From: Prasinococcaceae sp. CCMP 1430
Taxonomy: Eukaryota > Prasinodermophyta > Palmophyllophyceae > Prasinococcales > Prasinococcaceae
NCBI GenBank assembly: GCA_013416795.1
Contig: RQSC01000029.1
Location: forward strand, 79,420-114,397
DNA: 34,978 nt
Reading direction: 5' to 3'
The position numbers and the translations under genes were made by a program. Below the pieces are notes generated by a model. That model did not search any database, was not told the origin of the DNA, and saw nothing but the letters and a program-made list of their open reading frames with translations. Positions 31,579-32,378 of this stretch are shown piece by piece. Each line of letters starts with the position of its first letter. The stretch's first letter is position 1.

Positions 31579-32238
31579 ATGGGCACCACCGCCTCGCGCG
31601 CGCTTTTCTCGCCGCCAAACGTCAAGACCTCGACGGAGACCCTCGCGGACTTCAAGGCTAAGGACATCGACGGCAACGAGGTCGAGCTGTCCAAGTACAA
31701 GGGCAACGTCGTGCTCATGGTCAACGTCGCATCGGCGTGAGGTCTGACCGCCCAGAATTACAAGGAGATGGCCCAGCTGTACTCGAAGTACAAGGGTCAG
31801 AACTTTGAGATTCTGGTGCGTCAGCGTTTGCGCGCTCGTTCGTGCGCGCACCCCACGGTCAGACGCGCACGCTCGCGCCTCGCGTTGCTCTTTGGCTGAC
31901 TTGCAGACATACGCGATGGCGCGCACGCGCGCGCACGCCTGCAGGCATTCCCGTGCAACCAGTTCGGTGGCCAGGAGCCCGGCTCCAACGCGGACGTCAA
32001 GGCGTTCGCTCAGAGCAAGGGCGCCGAGTACCCCCTGTTTGCCAAGATCGACGTCAACGGCCCCGACGCCCACCCGCTCTGGAAGTGGGCCAAGGAGTGC
32101 AAGGGCTCCCTGCCCACCTCGGACATTAAGTGGAACTTCGGCAAGTTCCTTCTCGACAAGGACGGCAAAGTGTACGAGCGCTACGCGCCGACCTCGAGCC
32201 CCATGTCCATCGAGGGCGACATCAAGAAGCTGCTCTAA
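31579..32238 (+). CDS. Selenocysteine-containing glutathione peroxidase, GPx4-like (2 exons)
   Basis: Reduces lipid and hydrogen peroxides with thiols. Exons 31579-31815 and 31945-32238 give 176 residues, a normal length for a monomeric phospholipid-hydroperoxide GPx. The 129-base intron is GTGCGT...CAG. An in-frame TGA at 31738-31740 (codon 54) sits exactly at the catalytic position: NVASA-U-GLTAQNY. The frame then continues with every family landmark: [25 protein letters not shown] and [15 protein letters not shown]. The catalytic tetrad is U54, Q89, W142 and N143, with the same U-to-Q spacing as animal GPx4. No targeting peptide is evident ([13 protein letters not shown]); MG at the start could be myristoylated. 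A SECIS candidate lies in the 3' region. Decoding TGA as Sec rather than a nonsense mutation is strongly favoured, since conservation continues after it. Converges on MetAP. Confidence 0.93.
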
Positions 32239-32308
32239 ATTGAGCCCGCCCCGAGGGCCGCGCTCGCGCCGCCGGGAACGCTCGTGAGCTGCTCGTGCGA
32301 GAGGATTG

Positions 32309-32378
32309 AGTACCCCATGACGCCACCGACGCAAACCTTTCTGCCGTCGCGCAGGCTGATATGTACGCTTGAAGTACT
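32309..32378 (+). promoter_or_regulatory. Candidate SECIS element of the GPx gene
   Basis: About 80 bases after the GPx stop, an ATGAC (32317-32321) is followed after 11 bases by an unpaired AAA (32333-32335) and then by GGCTGAT (TGAT at 32357-32360). ATGA and TGAT can form the non-Watson-Crick quartet. Above it GCC pairs with GGC and CGACG with CGTCG, leaving the AAA in the apical loop. Below it AGTAC (32309-32313) can pair with GTACT (32374-32378). The AUGA-to-AA spacing is within the eukaryotic SECIS range. The internal mismatch (AC opposite CGCA) makes the fold less than ideal. Confidence 0.6.

Follow-up and report, generated by a model that had tools for sequence, protein, structure and literature searches.

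A glutathione peroxidase gene with a probable selenocysteine codon in the nuclear genome of a eukaryotic alga

Within the 34,978-nucleotide stretch of algal DNA analysed here (the window), a glutathione peroxidase (GPx) reading frame carries an in-frame TGA at its catalytic codon, which raises the question of whether this triplet ends the protein or is decoded as selenocysteine (Sec). The best explanation, to which we give a probability of about 95%, is that a eukaryotic, probably green, alga carries here a nuclear selenoprotein gene for a GPX4-type glutathione peroxidase with Sec at position 54.

Gene structure and family membership

Read directly from the ATG at 31579 to the TAA at 32236-32238, the frame gives a two-exon gene for 176 residues, with the TGA as codon 54. 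The features of the locus are as follows.

31579-31815, forward strand: GPx exon 1, 79 codons (residues 1-79); frame and splice site read directly, with a PF00255 match
31738-31740, forward strand: in-frame TGA, codon 54, the putative catalytic Sec codon; in alignments it stands opposite the catalytic Cys in paralogue L014 and in solved GPx structures
31816-31944, forward strand: intron, GT..AG, 129 nt, phase 0, read from the sequence; protein similarity is continuous across it
31945-32238, forward strand: GPx exon 2, residues 80-176 and the TAA stop; it contributes Gln89, Trp142 and Asn143 to the catalytic tetrad
32309-32372, forward strand: SECIS element candidate, with ATGA at 32317-32320, AAA at 32333-32335 and TGAT at 32357-32360, from a rule-based scan and constrained folding

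The translation of exon 1 ends in NFEIL, and the intron borders are GTGCGT...TGCAG. A first-pass annotation of this DNA had placed a TGA at the catalytic codon and described family similarity continuing beyond it and across a clean intron. Both claims were borne out, as the triplet aligns with the catalytic Cys of GPx, the frame stays intact to the conserved C-terminus and the matches to solved structures are continuous. Elsewhere in the window, a long, N-interrupted GT/CA microsatellite occupies about 1290-1500, and similar repeats fill the introns of the paralogous locus L022.

With Cys placed at position 54, the window protein matches the GSHPx family PF00255 with an E value of 9.9e-39 and 131.7 bits against a cut-off of 27. 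Among structures in the PDB, poplar GPx5 (2p5q) is matched at 1.1e-53 over residues 18-176 and GPX4 structures at about 1e-48 over residues of about 20-172. In an alignment of six paralogues the catalytic columns 54 (Sec/Cys), 89 (Gln), 142 (Trp) and 143 (Asn) are invariant. The protein is of GPX4-type size (176 amino acids), lacks the oligomerisation loop and shows few gaps against GPX4-type and plant GPx5 sequences. The earlier label "GPX4-like" is fair for this short, loop-less class, although in sequence the protein comes nearest, among natural structures, to a plant GPx.

Recurrent TGA codons and SECIS candidates

The genome examined comprises 24.5 Mb in 145 contigs, and the window has a GC content of 65-71%. 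Seven GPx loci were found, of which six carry TGA at the catalytic codon and one carries a Cys codon. Their catalytic motifs, with U for the TGA codon, are listed below.

Window GPx: NVASAUGLT, TGA codon
L015 and L016, near copies: NVAGLUGTT, TGA codon
L017: NVATHUGAT, TGA codon
L018: NVASLUPLQ, TGA codon
L022/L021: NVASRUGAT, TGA codon
L014: NVASYCGLT, Cys codon

A SelT-like gene (L027) also has a TGA within its CxxU motif (CQSU), and scores above the TIGR02174 cut-off when Cys replaces Sec. Downstream of the TGA, comparison of L015 with L016 gave a dN of 0.091 and a dS of 0.389, with 0.010 and 0.188, respectively, in the last exon; the region beyond the TGA is therefore under purifying selection.

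These observations bear on the possibility that the TGA is a sequencing error for TGC or TGT, or a recent nonsense mutation that leaves a pseudogene truncated at residue 53. Only one base separates TGA from the Cys codons. However, an error or a decayed gene is hard to reconcile with TGA at the same codon in six separate GPx loci and at the equivalent codon of SelT, with a frame unbroken over the intron to the conserved C-terminus, with the selection acting after the TGA in L015 and L016, and with the SECIS-like hairpins that follow the stops. We regard this explanation as highly improbable.

Several of the paralogues have peculiarities of their own. In L015 (G000:C68), 81 bp around the Sec codon are perfectly duplicated in tandem and in frame at positions 1426-1587, which yields two in-frame TGA triplets; the duplication may be genuine or an assembly artefact. 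L018 (G000:C135, about 1290-2193) has U-P rather than U-G after the catalytic residue, and L017, on the reverse strand of G000:C89, reads FPSNDF in place of the conserved FPCNQF.

A SECIS element about 80 bases past the stop had also been proposed in the first-pass annotation. The ATGA/AAA/TGAT arrangement is indeed present, its ATGA lying 78 nt past the stop. Helix II is formed by GCC/GGC and CGACG/CGTCG and helix I, which is short, by GTAC/GTAC; an internal loop is present. For a wider scan, a strict site was defined as [AG]TGA followed 9-13 nt on by AA, with GA closing the hairpin and at least seven pairs around the AA; these rules were drawn up with knowledge of the window candidate and with the UTRs of the other loci unseen. 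Strict sites follow the stops of L017 (98 nt), L022 (127 nt), L015 (201 nt) and L016 (206 nt), and the Cys paralogue L014 has none in the 400 nt after its stop. The background of the scan was 12 sites in 199 kb, or about 0.018 per 300 nt, and four or five strict sites in six or seven UTRs is far beyond chance, even allowing for the kinship of L015 and L016. L018 and L027 yielded candidates under relaxed rules only (a CC-type apical loop at 32 nt and an AAA type at 64 nt after the stop, respectively), and these are weak because relaxed matches are common in the background. The CC-type candidate of L018 has a strong helix I.

Taken alone, the window hairpin is suggestive only. A strict match arose in 19 of 500 dinucleotide shuffles of the window UTR, and Rfam returned no SECIS match in the window UTR or the paralogue loci, the matches in the latter being mostly false ones to CA repeats. 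Folding with RNAfold, which had been put forward as a check, weakened the case: in unconstrained folding of the region the hairpin was not produced and is not the minimum-energy fold (z +1.23). A MAFFT alignment of all seven candidates misaligned those of L017, L018 and L027. The shuffles and the weak fold would both fit a selenoprotein gene that has its functional SECIS at another place in the 3' UTR, 32309-32372 being a chance hairpin. Against this, a scan of 762 nt past the stop yielded no other strict site, and the hairpin has ATGAC, AAA and the AC of the internal loop in common with the candidates of L015 and L016, its distance from the stop being comparable to theirs. We consider a chance hairpin unlikely. 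Since four other Sec genes show the same architecture past their stops, the window SECIS candidate, though weaker than first described, becomes convincing once the paralogue evidence is added.

Selenocysteine machinery

The first-pass annotation had further reasoned that such a gene implies Sec machinery in the organism, and this was confirmed in part. Judged by profile matches, a Sec synthase (SepSecS) is definitely encoded (PF05889, E 4.2e-112; TIGR03531, E 9.6e-147, with 489 bits against a cut-off of 224.85). PSTK is likely present as well: a PSTK-like gene with VLVDDNHFYRSMRREFYGLCRRA lies on C54, and its first exon matches TIGR03575 with an E value of 4.3e-16 and 59 bits, below the whole-protein cut-off. 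A tRNA-Sec (UCA) was recovered from the genome neither with RF01852, for which only 53 of 2135 candidates received a score, nor by pattern searches; eEFSec was not recovered in genome searches that scored the best candidates only, and the AIRS search for SPS gave no match at all. PurM of purine synthesis carries the AIRS domain, is near-universal and is expected in any alga. Because the AIRS search missed PurM too, the negatives for tRNA-Sec, eEFSec and SPS carry little weight; the machinery searches were insensitive, since introns interrupt the genes, some stretches lay outside the searched sequence and scoring was confined to the best candidates. That the alga decodes UGA as Sec through a divergent tRNA-Sec, eEFSec or SPS lying beyond the standard models seems to us improbable.

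The candidates inspected in these searches proved to be other genes. All four RF01852 matches, which lie on the organellar contig, proved to be tRNA-Leu and tRNA-Ser genes, and pattern matches to the tRNA-Sec anticodon and T arms were organellar or non-tRNA only. The first eEFSec candidate (L007) is EF-Tu, and the other inspected matches to the selB model read as IF-2, eIF2-gamma, LepA, EF-G/EF-2-type and HBS1/eRF3-like GTPases, to judge by their motifs.

The failure to recover tRNA-Sec would fit a reading of the TGA as some other amino acid, through a changed code or general stop readthrough. Yet TGA serves as the stop codon in 7 of 13 ORFs examined across the window and occurs inside none of them, which argues against its reassignment, and the in-frame TGA codons sit at redox Sec positions in a genome that encodes a Sec synthase and a PSTK-like gene. 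A changed code or readthrough therefore appears very improbable.

Organellar sequence was encountered in the same assembly. A plastid-like contig carries rps12-rps7-tufA-rpl19, an order known from green algal plastids, together with chlI (both read from ORFs), which makes a green alga the likely source. On G000:C136, a clpP-like ORF of plastid type lies next to GC-rich, nuclear-like DNA near 216643-219728 (L002), through either a plastid insertion or a misassembly. Mitochondrial-like sequence on G000:C41 and G000:C98 (L023-L026) gives identical matches in both contigs, shifted by a constant offset, which suggests redundant assembly.

Proposed mechanism and comparison with known systems

The reading of the locus as a real selenoprotein gene is supported by TGA in six of the seven GPx genes and at the SelT-like Sec position, by the recurrent SECIS-like hairpins and by the Sec synthase. 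By analogy with known eukaryotic Sec decoding, the 3' UTR hairpin would recruit a SECIS-binding factor and eEFSec with Sec-tRNA-Sec, and the UGA at 31738-31740 would thereby be read as Sec and not as a stop. The enzyme would then reduce peroxides, probably lipid hydroperoxides, via Sec54 with Gln89, Trp142 and Asn143. The Cys paralogue L014 keeps a helix Cys (VQEFCTRQ) where poplar GPx5 has FVCTRF; in plant GPx this Cys acts as the resolving residue of a thioredoxin-type cycle. As the window protein lacks this residue, direct reduction by glutathione or another thiol seems more likely than a two-Cys cycle of the plant type.

The window gene would probably be cut short or given a wrong start by standard annotation, and the six Sec-coded GPx loci and SelT in this genome need Sec-aware annotation. 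Existing knowledge is unchanged by the gene, Sec-containing GPX being among the commonest algal selenoproteins.

Compared with mammalian GPX4, the window protein shares the Sec/Gln/Trp/Asn tetrad and the short, loop-less, monomer-type sequence (about 1e-48 over residues 21-172), whereas it resembles plant GPx5 at least as closely. The plant enzyme (poplar GPx5, 2p5q), the nearest natural solved sequence, has Cys where the window protein has Sec, and opposite its FVCTRF the window protein reads FAQSK, without Cys. The SECIS candidate has the ATGA/AAA/GA motifs, the 12-nt spacing from ATGA to AAA and the 3' UTR position of eukaryotic SECIS elements, but its helix II is short, rich in GC and interrupted by an internal loop, and Rfam does not match it. 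At the genome level, the green alga Prasinoderma coloniale (25.3 Mb, 69.8% GC, 22 chromosomes), for which Sec proteins were reported in high number (PMC7455551), resembles this genome in size and GC, with 22 chromosomes there against 145 contigs here. More than 1000 selenoprotein genes have been described in 137 algae, GPX, SELENOU, SELENOT and TXNRD being the most widely distributed (PMC7539508). From the algal Sec-GPX family, with its catalytic-site Sec, PF00255 fold and GPX4-like length, the window protein shows no meaningful difference, and because Sec-GPX is so widespread in published surveys of algae, the window gene is a genuine but ordinary addition to this known family.
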